A DNA stretch of 64,000 bases from the NCBI RefSeq assembly GCF_017642925.1, contig NZ_JAEPOL010000005.1:1-64000 (forward strand), in the 5' to 3' direction. Every line of letters begins with the position of its first letter. Position 1 is the stretch's first letter. The DNA is from Maricaulis sp. GTDB lineage: Bacteria; Pseudomonadota; Alphaproteobacteria; Caulobacterales; Maricaulaceae. Made by a program: the position numbers and the translations under genes. Shown piece after piece: positions 4,236 through 59,255 of this stretch. The notes below the pieces were generated by a model. The model was not told the DNA's origin and searched no databases. It worked only from the letters and a program-made list of their open reading frames with translations.

Positions 4236-5396
4236 ATGAATATAATCACGACGACAAAGGGCCTGGAAAAGGCCTGTGACGACCTCCTCCAGAATCCCTA
4301 CATGGCTGTCGACACCGAGTTCATGCGTGAAACGGTGTACTGGCCGCAGCTCTGCCTGATACAGGCGGCCGGCGGCCCGACGGAAGTCATTATCGACCCG
4401 CTGGCTGACGGTCTCGACCTGGAACCCTTCTGGGAGCTGATGGCGGATGAGCGGATCATCAAGGTCTTCCATGCTGCACGGCAGGACCTGGAGATCTTCT
4501 TCCACCGCGGCGGCGACAGCCTGATCCCGCATCCGATGTTCGACAGCCAGGTCGCCGCCATGGCGCTGGGCCTGGGCGACTCGATTGCCTATGACGCGCT
4601 GGTGAAGGCGCTGCTGAAACGCCCGATCGACAAGGGTCCGCGCTTCACCGACTGGTCGCGCCGCCCGCTGAGCGACGCCCAGCTGGAATACGCCATGGCC
4701 GACGTGACCCATCTGCGCGATCTCTACCCGATCATGCAGGAGCGCCTGGAGAAGAAGGGCCGGGCCGAATGGCTGGCCGAGGAAATGAAAATCCTCACCA
4801 ATCCGGACACCTACCGCCTCGATCCCGAAGAGAGCTGGCGCCGGATGAAGCTGCGCAAGAATTCGCCCAAATGGCTGGCGGCGCTGCGTGCCGCTGCCGC
4901 CTGGCGCGAGACCGAGGCCCAGACCCGGGACATGCCGCGCCAGCGCGTGATGAAGGATGATGCGATCTACGAGATCGCCGGTGTCGCGCCGACAACGCCG
5001 GACCAGCTCACCGGGCTGCGCGCCGTGCCGAAAGGCTTCGAGCGCTCCTCGCCGGCCCGCCGCCTGTTCGAGAAAATGTCGGCTGCCCTGGCCGCGCCGG
5101 AATCATACGCACCGAAATACGAAAAGTCCGCACCGCCGCCGCAGGGCACGGGGCCGACCGTGGAATTGCTCAAAGTGCTGCTGAAATTCGTCGCCGAGGA
5201 TGCCGGTGTCGCGCCGCGCCTGATCGCCACCGTGCCGGATCTCGAAAAGATCGCCAGTGGCGATGACGAAGATGTCGCCGCGATGACCGGCTGGCGGCGC
5301 GACGTGTTCGGCGAACCGGCCCGCCGTCTCAAACGGGGCGAACTGTCGCTGACGCTGAAGGACGGCAAGGTCTGCGTTTCCGAGGTGAAAGCCTAG
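4236..5396 (+). CDS. rnd: ribonuclease D
   Basis: A 386-residue 3'-5' exoribonuclease that trims tRNA and other structured RNA 3' ends. The DEDDy exonuclease residues are visible: D and E in VDTEFMRE (about residue 22), D in FHAARQDLEIF, and Y/D in YAMADVTHL. An HRDC domain follows (about residues 205-290), as in family members. Length is normal. It lies 34 bases after the transporter but has no functional tie to it. Confidence 0.93.
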   Translation: MNIITTTKGLEKACDDLLQNPYMAVDTEFMRETVYWPQLCLIQAAGGPTEVIIDPLADGLDLEPFWELMADERIIKVFHAARQDLEIFFHRGGDSLIPHPMFDSQVAAMALGLGDSIAYDALVKALLKRPIDKGPRFTDWSRRPLSDAQLEYAMADVTHLRDLYPIMQERLEKKGRAEWLAEEMKILTNPDTYRLDPEESWRRMKLRKNSPKWLAALRAAAAWRETEAQTRDMPRQRVMKDDAIYEIAGVAPTTPDQLTGLRAVPKGFERSSPARRLFEKMSAALAAPESYAPKYEKSAPPPQGTGPTVELLKVLLKFVAEDAGVAPRLIATVPDLEKIASGDDEDVAAMTGWRRDVFGEPARRLKRGELSLTLKDGKVCVSEVKA

Positions 5397-5423
5397 AGCG
5401 ATCAGGTGATCACGCTTTAGGCC
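5391..5423. terminator. hairpin spanning two convergent stop codons
   Basis: GCCTAGAGCGATCA and TGATCACGCTTTAGGC form an imperfect stem of about 14 pairs. The stop of rnd (TAG, 5394-5396) lies in the left arm and the stop of the facing gene (TAA on the minus strand, 5417-5419) in the right arm. It is placed like a bidirectional terminator, although it lacks a long T-run. Confidence 0.5.
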
Positions 5424-6004
5424 AAAGGCTTGAGCCTCGCATCCCAGGCACTGCCGCCATTGGCATAGAGCGGCAGGCCCGGCGGTGGCAGCAGGATGTT
5501 GTTCCAGTAGACATGCACCAGATCGCGCAAGGGGTCGTCGAGACGCTCAATGAGGCCGCGCGCCAGTTCCGGCATGGCGAAGAAGACAAACTCGCCCAGC
5601 GAACAGCACAGCCAGCTCTCGAAACCCGACGCCGGGCCGTCCGGATCATAGGGGTTCGGGACGGCCGTGGTGCACAATGTGTGGAAGCGGACATAATCCT
5701 CGACGTCCCAGCCGGCAAAGTCGAGGCAGTCGGACGGTGTGCGCAGATGATCGTGGATCGCCTCGCGCCAGCCGGCTTCGGCTGCACGGTCCGGCCAGGT
5801 CTCGCGCAAAAACTCAGCCACCGCGCCAGCCGGATTTCGAAGGACAAGGCCGGGGTGTTCACCGCTGCCGCCGCCGATAACCAAACCGCCGCGCGGACAG
5901 GAAAACTCCTGCGGCGGACCGTCGATATCTTCAAGCGGGCGGTAAACCGGCAAATAGCCGAAATAGCCCACAAGCTGGTGTTTATAGCCGTCGATAAAGC
6001 TCAC
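5417..6004 (-). CDS. hypothetical protein, 195 aa
   Basis: I do not recognise a family. The 195-residue product is soluble-looking, acidic and rich in aromatic residues, with a GGLVIGGGSGEHPGL stretch near residue 40 and WNNILLPPPGLPLY near the end. There is no signal peptide or membrane segment. The start is a GTG with AAGGGA nine bases upstream; codon use matches neighbours. It faces rnd and is separated from the diguanylate cyclase gene by 64 bases, so it may be its own unit. Confidence 0.65.
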   Translation of the reverse strand: MSFIDGYKHQLVGYFGYLPVYRPLEDIDGPPQEFSCPRGGLVIGGGSGEHPGLVLRNPAGAVAEFLRETWPDRAAEAGWREAIHDHLRTPSDCLDFAGWDVEDYVRFHTLCTTAVPNPYDPDGPASGFESWLCCSLGEFVFFAMPELARGLIERLDDPLRDLVHVYWNNILLPPPGLPLYANGGSAWDARLKPLA

Positions 6005-6068
6005 GCCGCCATCCCTTGCGATCCGTCCCGTCCCAGATAACGCGCAGCGCGTGCTGTGGCGAGCCCGG

Positions 6069-8372
6069 TCAGCCGGCGCGGCTCATTCTGAGACCGCCCT
6101 CGCGGCGCTCGGCCTCGACATGCGCGACCAGCGCGTCCAGCGTCAGTGGACGTGCGAAGAGATAGCCTTGAGCCTGGTCGCAGCCGATAATGCGCACGGC
6201 CTCGAACTGGCGTTCGGTCTCGACGCCCTCGGCAACCGTCGTCATCTGCAGGGCCCGGGCGAGCGCGTTGATCGAGCCGACGATGGAGATGGATTGCGGC
6301 TCGCGGTCCAGCGGTTCGACGAAGGAGCGGTCGATCTTCAGCTTGTCGAAGGCGAATTTGCGCAGATAGCTGAAGGAGGAATAGCCGGTGCCAAAATCGT
6401 CCAGGCTGATTTTCAGGCCGATATCGCGAAGCTTCTGCAGGATGTTCAGGTTCGCATCGGTATCCGCCAGCAGGACGGATTCGGTGATTTCCACTTCGAT
6501 ACGGCCCGGATCGACCCCGTAGCGCGTCAGCGCCTCGATGAAAACGGCGGGCAGGTTGGGATTGCGCAATTGTACCGGCGACACGTTGACGGCCAGGCAG
6601 ATATCGTTATCGATCCGCGCCGCGGCCGCGACAACCGACCGGATCACCCATTCTCCCATCGGCACGATCAGTCCGCTGCGCTCGGCCAGTTCGATGAAGC
6701 GGTCGGGCGGCACATTGCCGTGTTCCGGATGGGTCCAGCGCAGCAGCGCCTCGCAACCGGTGGTCCGGTTCCGGTCGATGTCGATCAGCGGCTGATAGAC
6801 CAGATGGATCTGGTCGTTGTCGATCGCCGCCCTGAGGTCCCGCTCCATCCGCATCAGCGCCTGGGCCTCGATGTCCATCGTCCGGTCGAACTCGACGACA
6901 TTGCCCTGCCCGCTCGCCTTCGCACGATAGAGCGCAAGGTCGGCCTGGCTCAGCACTGCCTGGACGCAGGTATCACCGGCACCGAGCTGACGGATGCCGA
7001 TACAGGTCGAACAATCCACCACGGCGTCGTCGATCGTGATCGGCAGCTCGATCGCATCGACGATCTGGCGTCCGATATACTGGGCCTCGCGACCCGGATC
7101 GGTCAGAACAATGGCAAATTCGTCACCGCCCATCCGGCACACGATGCCAGCCCGCCCCACAACATGGCGCAGGCGGCTGGCGACGGTCACCAGCACGCGG
7201 TCGCCCACCCCGTGTCCCATCGTGTCATTGATGACCTTGAACCGGTCCAGGTCCAGCAATAACAGGCTCGTACGGCCGTCCGGCAATTGCATGCGCTGAT
7301 CGAGCAGTGCCGAAAGCGTCGCCCGGTTGGCGAGGCCCGTCAGGGTGTCGTGCGAGGCCAGATACTCGATCTTTTCGGCGCTCTCGCGCGTCGCGGTAAT
7401 ATCGGAGGCCACGCCCTGGTAGCCGGTGAAACGCCCGTCCTCATAGCGCGGCTTTCCGGTCAGGCTGACCCAGCGCACGGTGCCATCGCCCTTCAGCCGC
7501 AGCTCGCGATCCGAGAAAGCCTCTTCGCCGGCCATCAGATGTGCCAGTTCGCTGGCGGCCACACCCCGTTCGAACAGAGACAGCAGCGCTGGCGCAGGGT
7601 GATCCTCCGAACGGATATTGTCCGGATCGAAACGCGGCAGGCCGGACCGGATCCGGCCCGACGTGTCGGTGCGCCATAGCCAGTCGGAGGCGGCCTCCTC
7701 GAAATCATGCAACAGCAGACCGATCAGCTCGGTCTGCTGTTGTGCGACACGCTCGCCCAGCAAGCGGTGGACAAATTCCGAATGGGACCAGCGGACCGAT
7801 TGCGCCAGCACGCCGGAATAGACCAGCAGGAGTGCGGCGACATAGAGCTCGACCGGATCCGGGTTCCGGAACAGGGCGACAAGCGAGCCTGCGGTAATGA
7901 TGCCGATCCATGCCATCGCCGCGCGCGGCAGGCTGGACAGCATGAAGGCACCGCCGCACAGCATGCCGACCGTCACGGCAACGACGGCCGCCTGAAACGA
8001 GCCCGACATGGAATTGTAGAACAGGATCGGGAAAGCCGCCCAGACCAGCGCCAGGATCGAACTGTCGCGCAGATTACGGCTGATCGACCGTTCCGAAGCC
8101 GCGGGGCGCAGCGGACGCCGGCGTTTACGCAGCCAGCCATAAAGGAGGAAGAGATTGGGTGCGGTGATGGCGAGCGCCCAGAACAGGCCGGACCACATCT
8201 GGCTGGTCTGTATCATCACACCCGCAACCAGTACCGCATTGGCAATATTGGCCCCGGCCGCAACCGGGCTGAACCGCTGAAACGCGTCCAGCTGCCGCGC
8301 CCGCACCCAGCCTGCCACGTCCTGCGGCACCGGTACGGGCGCGAAAAGATATTCCCCTAAACGCTTGAACAT
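6069..8372 (-). CDS. membrane PAS-GGDEF-EAL cyclic-di-GMP signalling protein
   Basis: A 767-residue composite protein. About residues 40-200 hold several membrane helices, 225-330 a PAS/PAC sensor (ending GYQGVASDITATR), 340-500 a GGDEF domain, and 510-755 an EAL domain. Both catalytic signatures are intact: MGGDEF at about residue 414 for the cyclase and CEALLRW plus DDFGTGYSS for the phosphodiesterase. It could make or break c-di-GMP; net activity cannot be read from sequence. In stalked alphaproteobacteria such proteins steer the motile-to-sessile switch. Flanking genes give no clue to the signal. Confidence 0.92.
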   Translation of the reverse strand: MFKRLGEYLFAPVPVPQDVAGWVRARQLDAFQRFSPVAAGANIANAVLVAGVMIQTSQMWSGLFWALAITAPNLFLLYGWLRKRRRPLRPAASERSISRNLRDSSILALVWAAFPILFYNSMSGSFQAAVVAVTVGMLCGGAFMLSSLPRAAMAWIGIITAGSLVALFRNPDPVELYVAALLLVYSGVLAQSVRWSHSEFVHRLLGERVAQQQTELIGLLLHDFEEAASDWLWRTDTSGRIRSGLPRFDPDNIRSEDHPAPALLSLFERGVAASELAHLMAGEEAFSDRELRLKGDGTVRWVSLTGKPRYEDGRFTGYQGVASDITATRESAEKIEYLASHDTLTGLANRATLSALLDQRMQLPDGRTSLLLLDLDRFKVINDTMGHGVGDRVLVTVASRLRHVVGRAGIVCRMGGDEFAIVLTDPGREAQYIGRQIVDAIELPITIDDAVVDCSTCIGIRQLGAGDTCVQAVLSQADLALYRAKASGQGNVVEFDRTMDIEAQALMRMERDLRAAIDNDQIHLVYQPLIDIDRNRTTGCEALLRWTHPEHGNVPPDRFIELAERSGLIVPMGEWVIRSVVAAAARIDNDICLAVNVSPVQLRNPNLPAVFIEALTRYGVDPGRIEVEITESVLLADTDANLNILQKLRDIGLKISLDDFGTGYSSFSYLRKFAFDKLKIDRSFVEPLDREPQSISIVGSINALARALQMTTVAEGVETERQFEAVRIIGCDQAQGYLFARPLTLDALVAHVEAERREGGLRMSRAG

Positions 8373-54976: not shown

Positions 54977-55804
54977 TCAACCGTCCTGACGCGTCATGGT
55001 GTAGACCTGTGCCGTGGCCGGGAAGCTGCGATCGCGCACCTCCTCGGCATAACGCTGCACCGCAGCGGTCGTGCGTTCGGCCTGGTTGTCATAGCGCTTG
55101 ACGAATTTCGGCGTCCACTCGAACACGCCCAGCATATCCTGGGTGACCAGCACCTGGCCGTCGCAGGCCGCCGAAGCACCGATGCCGATCGTGGGGACCG
55201 GCACTTTCTGGGTGATTTCCAGAGCGAGATCCTCGGCCACGCCTTCCACAACGATGGCAAAGGCGCCTGCGTCCGCGGTCGCCATGGCTTCATCGATCAC
55301 TTTCTGGCGCTCGGCGCGGGTGCGGCCCTTGGCCTTGAACCCGCCATCGGCCAGCGCCGCCTGGGGCCGGAGCCCGATATGCCCCATTACCGGGATCGAG
55401 CGCTGGGCCATGAAGTCGATGGTTTCGGCGGCATAGGTCCCGCTCTCGATCTTGATCGCCTGGCAGCCGGTCTCGCACATGATGCGGGCGGCGTTCTCGA
55501 ACGCCTGCTGCGGCGACTTTTCGTAGCTGCCGAACGGCATGTCGACGGTCACCAGCGCGCGCTTGGCGCCGCGCATCACGGCCTGGCCGTGCAGGATCAT
55601 CATGTCGAGGGTAACGCCGATGGTCGAATCGAGCCCGTGCACCACCATGCCGACGCTGTCGCCGACCAGCAGGAGATCGCAGTGCGGGTCGAGCAGCCGC
55701 GCCATCGGGGCATCATAGGCCGTCAGGCAGACGATCGGTTCGCCGCCCTTGCGGGCCCGGATTTCAGGAGCAGTGATGCGGCGGGTCTGGGTCTGGGCGG
55801 ACAT
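54977..55804 (-). CDS. panB: 3-methyl-2-oxobutanoate hydroxymethyltransferase
   Basis: A 275-residue enzyme, first step of pantothenate synthesis. [44 protein letters not shown] and [15 protein letters not shown] are family motifs. panC is not next to it. Followed by yfgM on the same strand (85-base gap). Confidence 0.95.
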
Positions 55805-55881: not shown

Positions 55882-56226
55882 TCAGCCGGCAATCCGGCGC
55901 GGCAGGACGACAGCAACGAGACCGACGGCGACGGCCATGGCGGCCGCGGCGAGCACTTCCGGCGACATCAGGAAGCCGGCATTGGCCAGCAGGCCTTCGG
56001 TGGGGACATGCATGTTGCCGAACACGCTTTCGAGTTGACTCCCGGCAATGGCCGATCCCGTGGAGCCAGCACCGCCCAGGATCAGGACCCGTTTGCGGTC
56101 CGGACGCGACAGGCGCTCGACCACCGATCTGGAAAAGGCTTCGCTCTCGCTGTCGCGTTCCAGCGGGGCTGCGGCGTCGGCAAAGGCCGCCTTCAGCCTT
56201 GCATCGAATGCATCATCTATCGTCAT
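55882..56226 (-). CDS. small membrane protein, possible anti-sigma partner
   Basis: A 114-residue protein with a polar N-terminal half ([20 protein letters not shown]) and a C-terminal membrane helix ([20 protein letters not shown]). No zinc-type HxxxCxxC anti-sigma motif. Overlap of four bases with the sigma factor gene upstream suggests coupled expression and a controlling partner role. It is the counterpart of 57900-58223. Confidence 0.65.
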
Positions 56227-56765
56227 GACGCCATTTCCTCAGCTTCCTGGAAGTAGGCCTGCAATTTGGCCCGCCCCCGGTTCACATGCGATTTCACCGT
56301 TCCCAGCGGCATTCCGGTCGCCTCTGCAGCTTCGGAATGCGACAATCCGCAAGAGTAGCACATCACCACCGCGATGCGTTCCTCCTCCTTCAATGTGGCA
56401 AGCGCCCGGTCGAGATCAACCACATTGCCCATGTCCCGTGGCGCTTCGCTGTCTTCCAGTCCGGTCTGGAATTTCTCCATGGCCCGCTCGGTGGAGCGCC
56501 GCTTGCGCGCGGCCATCAGGAATTCCGTGTAGGCAATCGAGCACAGCCAGGACTTGAATGCGCCCTTGCCGGTGAAGGTGCCGATCTTCTCGTAGGCGCG
56601 GATGAAGGCGTCCTGCGCGAGATCGTCAGCCAGGGCATGGTTGCGGCACATGCGATGCAGCATCCCCCTGACCAGCCCCTGGTGGCGCCGGACCAGCTCC
56701 CCGAAAGCCGCCGCATTCTTGGTGGCGACCACGAGGGCGACAAGTTCTTCGTCCGGCGCCTTCAT
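56223..56765 (-). CDS. ECF RNA polymerase sigma factor, module 1
   Basis: A 180-residue ECF sigma factor. Region 2 ADDLAQDAFIRAYEKIGTF plus GKGAFKSWLCSIAYTEFL binds -10 DNA; region 4 LSHSEAAEATGMPLGTVKSH is the -35 helix-turn-helix. A paralogue of 58216-58746. Flanked by a small membrane protein on each side, as in the second module. Confidence 0.88.
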   Translation of the reverse strand: MKAPDEELVALVVATKNAAAFGELVRRHQGLVRGMLHRMCRNHALADDLAQDAFIRAYEKIGTFTGKGAFKSWLCSIAYTEFLMAARKRRSTERAMEKFQTGLEDSEAPRDMGNVVDLDRALATLKEEERIAVVMCYSCGLSHSEAAEATGMPLGTVKSHVNRGRAKLQAYFQEAEEMAS

Positions 56766-56779
56766 CGGCGGCGTCCTCC

Positions 56780-57160
56780 TCAGGCCTGGTCTTTTTTGCC
56801 GAACAGGCCAAAGCCGATCAGCACCAGACCGATCAGGCCCGGGAAGGCCGCGACGGCCGGCATGATGTACATGGCTTCCGCATCACCCTCGACACCGAAG
56901 ATGGCAAAGCCCAGAACGATCAGGGCCAGCGCGATGGCCACCAGGATCGAACCGCTCTTCAGATCGCCATTGGAATCCTTGCGCGGCATACCCAGTGCGC
57001 GGATCGTCTCCGGCGTCATGGTCTGCCCGTTGCGGATCGCCTCCTCGACGACGCGCAGCGTTGCCCGGCGATTGCGCGATACCGCGCTCATTGCGATCCA
57101 GACGATAGCCACCACCATGATGAAGGGCGACATCGACACCAGCATGACTGTCAGGTCCAT
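56780..57160 (-). CDS. DUF6249-like small membrane protein, module 1
   Basis: A 126-residue protein: helix near the N terminus (SPFIMVVAIVWIAMSAVS), charged middle with RRATLRVVEEAIRNGQTMTP, then two helices around an EAMYIMPAVAAFPGLIGLV stretch and a basic end (FGKKDQA). It resembles DUF6249-type proteins often next to ECF sigma genes. ATG 57160 preferred; the longer frame runs past NnrU. Paralogous to 58749-59177. Confidence 0.7.
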   Translation of the reverse strand: MDLTVMLVSMSPFIMVVAIVWIAMSAVSRNRRATLRVVEEAIRNGQTMTPETIRALGMPRKDSNGDLKSGSILVAIALALIVLGFAIFGVEGDAEAMYIMPAVAAFPGLIGLVLIGFGLFGKKDQA

Positions 57161-57249
57161 TTTCGTAACTCCCGTATCTGGGCGGGTCCGCACAATGCTG
57201 CCCGTTTGACACCTTGATGCACCATCGTGCGGAATTGGATGCAGGCGGA

Positions 57250-57810
57250 CTATCCGATGATGGCCACGCCGAACAGATACATATGAAGATTCATGATGAT
57301 AAGCGCTGCAAGTGCGCCCAGCACGATCGCCGTCAGATCGCCGCCCCAGCCCTTCACGACCGGCGGCGGGGTCTCGCGCAGCCAGGACGACACGAAGGTC
57401 ACCAGCGACCAGACAAAGAAACTGCCGAACAGCACGAGTGCGGCGCGTTCGCCATTGGCAAGGAAGTGTGCACCCGCCCACAGCATGACCCCGGCCAGCA
57501 TGGGATGGCGTACCCAGTGGCGGATATGTCCTGGCGCATAGGCCGACACGATAAGGATCAGCCCCAGCGGCACCAGGGCGAAAGCCAGATGACGCGTCCA
57601 CACCGGCGGCGCCCAGACGGTTCCGGCCACAGGCTGGGCGAGCATCATGCCGTAGATGACGAGGCCGAAACCGACGAGCGATATCGCCGTATAGGCCAGC
57701 TTGTAGGGCGTTTCCCCCAGAGCCGACTGCAAGGCCGGCCGCGCGCCCGGCACCACGCGCAGCGAATGAACGCCCAGAAACAGAACCAGACCGGTAATCA
57801 GGACCAGCAT
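57250..57810 (-). CDS. NnrU-family membrane protein
   Basis: A 186-residue protein with about six helices. VLFLGVHSLRVVPGARPALQ, GHIRHWVRHPMLAGVMLWAG and the family's HSxR/HPxL motifs fit NnrU (PF07298), a family related to isoprenylcysteine-methyltransferase-like proteins and linked to nitric oxide/nitrite metabolism. GGAGGT sits before the ATG. It separates the two sigma modules. Confidence 0.85.
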   Translation of the reverse strand: MLVLITGLVLFLGVHSLRVVPGARPALQSALGETPYKLAYTAISLVGFGLVIYGMMLAQPVAGTVWAPPVWTRHLAFALVPLGLILIVSAYAPGHIRHWVRHPMLAGVMLWAGAHFLANGERAALVLFGSFFVWSLVTFVSSWLRETPPPVVKGWGGDLTAIVLGALAALIIMNLHMYLFGVAIIG

Positions 57811-57899
57811 GCGCACCTCCCCGCTGTCCGGGCACGAGTATAGGCGATTCACGCCCGCGTCGCGGGGGCAAATGGCTGACGCCCGAATCCGGGTCCAGG

Positions 57900-58223
57900 C
57901 TAGAGCAAATTCGGCAGGCGTACGCGCAGACGCCCATTCAGCCAGAAATGACCGATCAGGCCCACACCCAGAGCCAGGGGCAGCGTCACAAGGGCGAAAC
58001 GGGACTCCCCGCCCCGGAACAGGGTTTCCAGCACATCCCCGGCGATGGGAGCCGTGATCAGTGCGAGCAGGCACACCACCAGCCCCTGCCCCAGCCGTTC
58101 GGCCAGTTCCCGCCGGAAGCGGCGATGGGCGATATCGGCCATCACGGCCAGCCGGAAACCGGGATCGCGCGCCGGCACATCGCCAGCGCGGAAGAAGTCC
58201 TGCAGCGGATCGTGTTCACGCAT
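57900..58223 (-). CDS. small membrane protein, possible anti-sigma partner, module 2
   Basis: A 107-residue protein with polar start (MREHDPLQDFFRAGDVPARD) and two membrane helices (GLVVCLLALITAPIAGDVL, ALVTLPLALGVGLIGHFWL). Overlaps the sigma gene by eight bases. It shares the D..F..A...P.RD..F...V pattern with 55882-56226. Zinc motif absent. Confidence 0.65.
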   Translation of the reverse strand: MREHDPLQDFFRAGDVPARDPGFRLAVMADIAHRRFRRELAERLGQGLVVCLLALITAPIAGDVLETLFRGGESRFALVTLPLALGVGLIGHFWLNGRLRVRLPNLL

Positions 58224-58746
58224 CGTCCACTCCCAGAATGGCCATCAGACGGGTGCGGCCCCGGCTGACATGGGATTTTATCGTACCCAGCGGCAAGTCC
58301 AAGACATTTGCCGCATCGCTGTGCGACCAGCCTCCGGCCAGGCAGAGCGCGACGGCCGCCCGCTGCTCTTCCGGCAGTTCCGCAAGCGCCTGCTGCATCG
58401 CCAGGGCCAGTTCGCGCTGCGGCGCCTCGCTGACCGGCTGCAAGGCCTGCCAGGCGGTTTCCCGAGTGCGGGTGCGCGACATGGACCGGGCGCGCGCCTT
58501 GGCCTTGCGCCAGGCAATCGCGAACAGCCAGGATTTGAGCTTCGCTCCGTCGCGCAGGCTGCCCAAATGCGTCCACGCATCGACGAAAGCATCCTGTGCG
58601 ATCTCGTCAGCATCGGCGTCATTGCCACTTACCCGCCGCAAAAAGCCGCGGACCGGCGACTGGTACCGGTCCACGATACGGGCAAAGGCCTCATCCGATC
58701 CCGACCGGGCCGCCGCGACCAGCGCAGCGTCGTCGGGGGCCTGCAT
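58216..58746 (-). CDS. ECF RNA polymerase sigma factor, module 2
   Basis: A 176-residue ECF sigma factor; DADEIAQDAFVDAWTHLGSL and GAKLKSWLFAIAWRKAKARA form region 2, WSHSDAANVLDLPLGTIKSH region 4. It matches 56223-56765 in order and ends (both start M-x-APD). Basic RARSMSRTRTRE linker. Co-located with a membrane protein upstream (two bases). Confidence 0.88.
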   Translation of the reverse strand: MQAPDDAALVAAARSGSDEAFARIVDRYQSPVRGFLRRVSGNDADADEIAQDAFVDAWTHLGSLRDGAKLKSWLFAIAWRKAKARARSMSRTRTRETAWQALQPVSEAPQRELALAMQQALAELPEEQRAAVALCLAGGWSHSDAANVLDLPLGTIKSHVSRGRTRLMAILGVDDA

Positions 58747-58748
58747 GA

Positions 58749-59177
58749 TCAGTCATTCCTGCGGCGGCGCGAAAACAGGCCGCTGAAAAGAAACGCGACC
58801 GCGAGCACACCGAGCACCATTGAGATGAAATACATTTCGCGCGTGGTGCCGCCCAGCAGTCCGGCATAGCCGGTATAAGCAAACACGCCAGCCAGACCGG
58901 TGAACAGCACGACCAGAAAGACATGGCCACCGCCAGGGCTGCCGCTGCTTTCCTCGCCGGAGGTGTGATATTCGTGGCGATGCGTGTTGTCGTTATCGAG
59001 CGAAGCGAGCAATTCGGCCGGCGGCTCCTTGCCCGCGGCCGTGAAGCTCTTGATCAGGTCGATCTTGGCCTGGGTGCGCTTGTAGCGCATGAAACTGCCC
59101 CAGCCGGCAGCCAGAAAGAACCCCAGCGGAAACAGCAGCCACCAGTAACTGTGGAAGATCTCGACCATTGCATTCAT
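58749..59177 (-). CDS. DUF6249-like small membrane protein, module 2
   Basis: A 142-residue protein with an N-terminal helix (YWWLLFPLGFFLAAGWGSF), a charged middle with KIDLIKSFTAAGKEPPAEL and His-rich THRHEYH, then two helices around TTREMYFISMVLGVLAVAF and a basic end (SRRRRND). Layout parallels 56780-57160 (MYI/MYFI, GLFGKK/GLFSRR). First gene of module 2. Confidence 0.7.
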   Translation of the reverse strand: MNAMVEIFHSYWWLLFPLGFFLAAGWGSFMRYKRTQAKIDLIKSFTAAGKEPPAELLASLDNDNTHRHEYHTSGEESSGSPGGGHVFLVVLFTGLAGVFAYTGYAGLLGGTTREMYFISMVLGVLAVAFLFSGLFSRRRRND

Positions 59178-59255
59178 CCCTTTCCGGCGGCACCCCGCGG
59201 CACCTTTCGATAACAGGTTGCCGCCAGGCCCCCGTCCGGATGCAGCGTCGGAAAA

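Follow-up and report, generated by a model that had tools for sequence, protein, structure and literature searches.

In the CnrYXH system of Cupriavidus metallidurans, CnrH is the sigma factor, CnrY the membrane-anchored anti-sigma factor and CnrX the membrane sensor. NepR, from the general stress response of Alphaproteobacteria, is soluble and is switched by PhyR. The paralogous extracytoplasmic function (ECF) sigma factors SigX, SigW and SigM of Bacillus recognise overlapping promoters with a common -35 element and discriminate between them through the -10 element. Class II anti-sigma factors, of the CnrY and NepR type, have a cytosolic anti-sigma domain of under 50 residues, and in the binding mode of CnrY two helices wrap sigma regions 4 and 2 (as given in passages of PMC7406223). 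The stretch of Maricaulis sp. DNA analysed here (contig NZ_JAEPOL010000005.1, positions 1 to 64,000; hereafter the window, 64,000 nucleotides) carries two minus-strand blocks, module A (59177-57900) and module B (57160-55882), each with a membrane protein (MP) gene, an ECF sigma gene and a small partner gene in this order. We propose that each block is probably a complete autoregulated sigma/anti-sigma switch, in which the short zinc-free partner holds the sigma factor and the DUF6249 protein modulates it in the membrane; binding, signal and autoregulation are the parts that we infer.

The paired three-gene modules had been picked out by a sequence-only reading, which placed them at 56223..59177; this span touches both modules and omits most of partner B, which extends to 55882. 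The sigma/partner overlaps of 8 bases (module A) and 4 bases (module B) agree with that reading, and the zinc anti-sigma motif Hx3Cx2C is absent from both partner sequences, as it had noted. Regions 2 and 4 of ECF sigma factors were both found above cut-off in sigma A and in sigma B. The description of both MPs as DUF6249-like held for MP-B, which exceeds the DUF6249 (PF19762) cut-off of 33 bits; MP-A falls under it and is related at profile level, with weak DUF6249 matches in 10 of the 19 members of its family (best E 0.0023). The EAMYI/REMYFI and GLFGKK/GLFSRR tracts, cited as shared between the modules, are present in the window and loosely kept in relatives. A hydrophobicity scan gave two membrane helices for MP-A, three for MP-B, two for partner A and one for partner B; by eye, there are three in MP-A and two in partner B. 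The features are listed in Table 1.

Table 1. Features of the two ECF modules in the window (aa, amino acids).
Feature	Position	Strand	Remarks
A-type ECF promoter-like site TGCATCC-N16-GCAAC	59217..59244	-	39 bases before MP-A; site class also upstream of MP-A in relatives
MP-A, membrane protein, 142 aa	58749..59177	-	remote DUF6249 relative; Asp/His/Gly-rich linker; PF19762 15.4 bits, cut-off 33
Sigma A, ECF sigma factor, 176 aa	58216..58746	-	PF04542, PF08281
Partner A, small membrane protein, probable anti-sigma, 107 aa	57900..58223	-	overlaps sigma A, 8 bases
nnrU, between modules	57250..57810	-	PF07298 171.3 bits
B-type ECF promoter-like site TGCATCC-N16-GCATC	57216..57243	-	55 bases before MP-B; seen in relatives too
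MP-B, DUF6249 membrane protein, 126 aa	56780..57160	-	PF19762 37.9 bits, above 33-bit cut-off
Sigma B, ECF sigma factor, 180 aa	56223..56765	-	PF04542, PF08281
Partner B, small membrane protein, probable anti-sigma, 114 aa	55882..56226	-	N-terminal F...V motif, Gly-rich first membrane helix; overlaps sigma B, 4 bases

Sigma A and sigma B are clear paralogues. Their score of 304 was reached by none of the 1000 shuffles made for each protein pair (shuffle mean 31). The same test on the flanking proteins gave a score of 41 for MP-A and MP-B, reached by 22 of 1000 shuffles and not counted significant, and a non-significant score of 34 for the two partners (138 of 1000). The similarity of the flanking proteins, on which the sequence-only reading had leaned, was therefore not significant pair by pair and became so between family profiles. 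The profile of the MP-B/other family (23 sequences) matched that of the MP-A family (19 sequences) with a Prob of 96.4 and an E of 1.4e-9, and the two partner profiles (37 and 22 sequences) matched with a Prob of 95.6 and an E of 1.1e-8, across 40 N-terminal columns only. Column-shuffled controls, 20 for each comparison, accompanied an earlier version of this analysis: the MP profile score was 45.0 against a shuffle maximum of 17.1, the partner A/B score was 33.0 against 18.6, and the match of partner A with mixed other partners was weak (Prob 13.9; 19.6 against 8.8). As a negative control, MP profiles were compared with partner profiles: the four scores ranged from 13.6 to 17.2 and the shuffle maxima from 13.7 to 16.6, and two scores slightly exceeded their own maximum. 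Because the family profiles make the flanking proteins homologous, duplication of the whole module is supported, with a partner signal confined to a stretch of 30-40 residues. This short signal, together with the weak likeness of the flanking proteins as single sequences, would also suit an independent recruitment of similar parts into two modules, with no whole-module duplication. We consider such recruitment unlikely, as homology at profile level is found in all three positions, in the same order, and tandem copies are known in two families of the order.

The whole-module duplication appears to be ancient, because the A and B sigma factors fall into distinct lineages across several families of the order. 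All 61 genomes of the order had an ECF match, and 57 loci were taken from the 49 genomes with the stronger matches. In a quick tree of the sigma factors only (82 rows including three outgroup rows, with a weak root and support from the SH-like approximate likelihood ratio test, SH-aLRT, only), the sigma A group held 28 rows from three families (support 98), and the other groups held 47 rows (support 88, not starred) and four rows (support 96). A recent duplication was rejected, since both lineages predate the families of the order in this tree; the duplication proposed from the DNA alone thus fits, as an old event. The tree drew a long-branch warning, and a third DUF6249-ECF module of the Maricaulis genome itself was among the branches concerned. 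This module (locus L031, G000:C14:51000-63000, 5294-6527) has a short partner without the F...V motif. Both modules were present in 19 of the 19 genomes of the genus (this one and 18 others), in two further genomes of the family (G022, G025) and in three of another family (G050, G042, G038).

The linkage of the three genes was also conserved in relatives, as had been anticipated. An MP gene precedes 78 of the 79 family sigma genes in the loci from 49 of the 61 genomes, a descriptive count since the MP profile was built from these neighbours. Conversely, the MP gene is followed by an ECF gene in 72 of 80 named loci, which are the best 80 of the 93 genome loci matched by an MP-B family query and overlap strongly with the first locus set (many genomes are identical); three of the remaining eight stop at a contig end. 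This linkage supports a functional tie between MP and sigma factor. Tandem modules were seen in 24 of the 80 named loci, with nnrU between them in 21, including Maricaulis, Marinicauda, Hyphobacterium and three records titled only Alphaproteobacteria; the three tandems without nnrU belong to Phenylobacterium. The nnrU gene still precedes module B in 16 named loci holding B alone. An insertion of nnrU between the modules, as first suggested, agrees with its place in the 21 tandems, and its loss from the others is equally possible.

Beyond the order, DUF6249 was found in 21 of 299 genomes of the phylum, at 23 places, 16 of them above cut-off (10 in the host order). All 16 of these are followed immediately, on the same strand, by an ECF gene. 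For the seven places below cut-off, the ECF gene was on the same strand in one, on the opposite strand in three and absent in three. Among 14 control genomes, DUF6249 was also matched in Caulobacter vibrioides, Bacteroides ihuae and Haloferax volcanii (two of the three over cut-off). In L104, L105 and L109, the weak DUF6249 genes are opposite in strand to the ECF gene, the end of which is overlapped by larger membrane-type genes; perhaps these loci represent a divergent variant of the system. At L088 (984-1833, minus strand), the DUF6249 protein is extended at its N-terminus by a long segment that may be a periplasmic domain.

The small partner is probably an anti-sigma factor. In the alignment of 75 partners, from which four atypical ones had been excluded beforehand (L031, L046, L047, L054), one phenylalanine was invariant (75 of 75) within the pattern L..xF, then F...V...[LVI]. 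Of the 94 distinct partners in the named loci, 80 have this motif in its strict form and 88 in its relaxed form; among 1931 other open reading frames (ORFs) of similar length, the counts were 7 and 57, respectively. By eye, about 45 residues precede the first hydrophobic stretch, and this short N-terminal part would fit the class II anti-sigma domain as described in the parts consulted of PMC7406223 and PMC8103513. The first membrane helix of partner B is glycine-rich and well kept (for example in L062), which suggests that it packs against another helix. The roles might be reversed, DUF6249 being the main anti-sigma factor, with a cytoplasmic loop binding the sigma factor, and the downstream partner an accessory or co-anti-sigma protein. 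The loop after the first membrane helix of DUF6249 and the helix that follows are well conserved, and the invariable position of the ECF gene directly 3' of the above-cut-off DUF6249 genes would agree with such an arrangement. However, it is the partner gene that overlaps the sigma gene and the partner that has the usual look of an anti-sigma factor, with its invariant phenylalanine in a short N-terminal tail. Moreover, a membrane-type gene still overlaps the sigma end in the three sub-cut-off loci with the MP gene on the opposite strand. The reversed assignment is improbable in our view, and the partner is retained as the presumed anti-sigma factor.

Both modules sit behind a promoter-like site, with the same -35 half (TGCATCC) and a different -10 half that tracks the sigma lineage. 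Alignment of the regions upstream of MP-A and MP-B showed TGCATCC, approximately 16 bases, and then GCRAC (A) or GCATC (B). The joint pattern matches the window at these two sites and nowhere else, for 0.36 matches expected; at least two were obtained in 7 of 100 shuffles. Over all modules, classed as A or B according to which sigma profile scored higher and related rather than independent, the core was present in 25 of 35 A-type modules (GCGAC 15, GCAAC 8, GCGTC 2) and in 54 of 99 B-type modules (GCATC 53, GCGTC 1). The region 4.2 recognition helix is alike in sigma A and sigma B (PLGTVKSHV.RGR) and the region-2 loop differs (28 and 34 rows), which fits one -35 and two -10 halves. A weight matrix made from 48 B-type sites was run on seven loci outside the host class, a check after the fact as the sites had been seen beforehand. 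It gave a match at -55 to -66 in four of them (L090, L095, L100 and L191, the last from Phocaeicola massiliensis), and 0, 0, 1 and 0 of 200 shuffles were as good. As the sites are known from their footprint alone, they could belong to another regulator and not be the promoters of these sigma factors. It is quite unlikely, given that the -10 half follows the A or B lineage across families, that the site also precedes modules outside the host class, and that 15 of the 19 own-genome matches have an identical 16-base spacer. If the sites are indeed sigma A and sigma B promoters, the common -35 and separate -10 halves imply that the paralogues could run side by side with little cross-talk.

The same pattern points to candidate regulons. 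It had 19 matches in the Maricaulis genome against one for a reversed control pattern, and 209 against eight in the 12 genomes of the genus searched. The spacer in four Maricaulis genomes (G000, G001, G003, G010) was of 16 bases in 51 of 74 matches, 15 bases in 19 and 17 bases in four. Stretches were taken around 36 chosen sites, 30 of which were analysed further, and the longest nearby ORF was taken as the target, without gene calling. Besides the MP-B site, the genome has 12 B-type sites (16-base spacer, GCATC). An ORF starts 12 to 33 bases downstream of 10 of them, nine at 26 to 33 bases; of the remaining two, one falls within a long gene and the other lies ahead of a doubtful ORF of 83 amino acids. 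An ORF of more than 150 amino acids also spans the site in 10 of the 12 cases, some being the extended frame of the target itself. At seven of the 12 sites, the downstream gene has a relative that likewise lies behind a site of this kind in another genome of Maricaulis. Three of these seven recurring targets are genes for a DUF2807 protein, an M1-like protein and a hydrolase with a beta-lactamase fold; the other four encode an efflux protein of the outer membrane, a membrane protein, a repetitive lipoprotein and a small protein that looks secreted. Of the seven, three had no Pfam match and the others were named by Pfam. The lipoprotein recurred at L234, L247, L251, L284 and L288 (L234 without a Pfam match) and presumably resembles bactofilins. 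Judged by sequence and Pfam names, most B-type targets have the look of exported or envelope-bound proteins. In four other genera of the family, the B-type pattern had 36 matches and the control none. Thirty of these loci were returned, 25 with a downstream ORF; four of the ORFs were MP-B, and 11 of the other 21 were homologous to Maricaulis targets. Three loci examined in family f2 (L292-L294) showed no homologue of the Maricaulis targets. None of the matches listed in a literature search on DUF2807 and ECF held DUF2807. The A-type pattern, YGCATCC-N15-17-GCRAC, had 7 to 20 matches per genome against 0 to 4 for the control in the 19 genomes of the genus.

In the model that we propose, the partner would be a membrane-anchored, zinc-free short anti-sigma factor, the cytoplasmic N-terminus of which (about 40 residues) clamps the sigma factor through two presumed short helices carrying L..xF and F...V...[LVI]. 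The membrane protein DUF6249, whose cytoplasmic loop is conserved, would sit beside it in the membrane; the upstream MP as part of the sensor, a possibility raised by the sequence-only reading, is our inference also. A disturbance of the envelope would lead DUF6249 to tune or relieve the clamp, and the freed sigma factor would transcribe its own operon. Freed sigma B would in addition transcribe an envelope regulon: the outer-membrane efflux protein, DUF2807 'GIN' proteins, the repetitive lipoprotein, M1-like and other hydrolases and DUF5694. With a common -35 and separate -10 halves, the two paralogues would be mostly insulated. The gene linkage, the three-gene homology, the ancient duplication, the promoter-like sites with their split and the recurrence of the B-type targets are the sequence observations on which this model is built.

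Several observations weigh against it. The window partners reach no Pfam family (best E 0.082 for partner A, none for partner B), and their profiles (37 and 22 sequences) retrieved no convincing PDB chain (best E 0.15). The partner of the third own-genome module is atypical, without the conserved motif, and five named loci (Aquisalinus and a Parvularculaceae record; L149, L153, L171, L176, L190) have an MP without an ECF gene in the stretch. The strict promoter core is absent from 45 of the 99 B-type and 10 of the 35 A-type modules, counts in which other -10 forms figure as absent because the search expression admits only GC[AG][AT]C. Phenylobacterium or Caulobacteraceae, by record title, account for 22 of the 45 core-less B-type modules, and, among 25 aligned upstream stretches from further B-type modules (Phenylobacterium for the most part), 18 show by eye TGCATC[TC] with the variant -10 GCCTC. 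The corresponding pattern TGCATCY-N15-17-GCCTCTT had no match in four other genomes of family f3, and thus gave no sign of a regulon there. Outside the host class, three of the seven loci (L088, L089, L098) had no weight-matrix site. The joint pattern was weaker in other families (64 matches against 10 for the control in seven genomes of the order). Finally, no second A-type target was found, the MP-A site alone recurring by eye among the matches listed; for this reason, module A may control little beyond its own operon.

A similar locus exists in Bacteroidota. One Phocaeicola massiliensis record (L191) has DUF6249 (96.9 bits), an ECF gene and DUF5056 (PF16479; 109.9 bits, cut-off 28 bits) in the order of the window modules, and shares with them the sigma/partner overlap, the partner motif and a related promoter-like site. 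It differs in that its DUF6249 protein has an N-terminal extension resembling a signal peptide by eye, and in that its partner is a DUF5056 protein, a family matched by neither window partner. When its MP was used as a query among plasmids, its own record alone was matched. The partner motif was recognised by eye at four of the six above-cut-off loci outside the host class (L088, L090, L095, L100) and not clearly at L089 and L098. A profile of these four partners and the Phocaeicola partner matched the partner B/other profile with a Prob of 96.9, scoring 56.8 where 20 shuffles reached no more than 12.6, and the partner A profile with a Prob of 90.2 (score 38.1, shuffle maximum 11.2). DUF5056 was weakly matched by four of the 37 members of the partner B/other alignment (best E 0.0011). 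In the host order, none of the 61 genomes had DUF5056 above cut-off and five had a match at E up to 0.1; two of the weak places (G057, G021) coincide in position with the partner gene. We tentatively suggest that the DUF6249-ECF-DUF5056-like triplets might together represent a single, widespread class of three-component ECF switch that has yet to be described and extends from Bacteroidota to Proteobacteria. DUF6249 and a short anti-sigma factor anchored in the membrane would do the sensing between them, inside the inner membrane, with neither a periplasmic sensor domain nor a zinc site. The promoter code TGCA[T/A]C-N15/16-[G/C]C[A/G]TC would be conserved alongside, and two insulated channels would have arisen when the module was duplicated in tandem and only the -10 half changed.

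In the window itself, the ORF found 3' of module B (54977-55804), which resembles a ketopantoate hydroxymethyltransferase gene (panB), has a similar counterpart after the module in Glycocaulis (L148).

No study of DUF6249 or DUF5056 function was found in the literature searched, where DUF6249 led only to a plant kinase study; the group may already bear an ECF number in the main ECF classification tables, which lie outside that literature. Caulobacter sigV/CaBP, with an EF-hand gene before sigV and a membrane component (in the part consulted of PMC13171946), was considered as a relative, and no link to the modules was found. EcfO/Reo of Phocaeicola, whose anti-sigma factor spans all five compartments according to the part consulted of PMC13114119, is not the DUF6249 system. 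The modules resemble CnrYXH in having three genes, for an ECF sigma factor, a small membrane anti-sigma candidate with a short cytosolic domain and a separate membrane protein, and sigma B matches CnrH as one of several ECF relatives (E 1.1e-10). Unlike CnrYXH, the window DUF6249 protein shows no large periplasmic domain, and the partners match no PDB chain convincingly. The NepR/EcfG system, as far as the partial sources describe it, likewise pairs a short anti-sigma factor with an ECF sigma factor; its anti-sigma is soluble and PhyR-switched, whereas the window partners are membrane proteins. In contrast to the Bacillus sigma factors, the paralogues here are in tandem modules and the -10 split follows their lineages across families. 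We propose that the modules are a new variant of the known sigma/anti-sigma scheme. DUF6249 would gain a probable role and DUF5056 a lead, both being named in Pfam only as domains of unknown function. An unstudied sigma pair would become a testable system, for which promoter sequences and a candidate envelope regulon are at hand and the region-2 loop and the -10 half are predicted to cause the insulation. If this is true, ECF paralogues with a common -35 and a split -10 kept over families would constitute a natural experiment on the separation of duplicated signalling channels.

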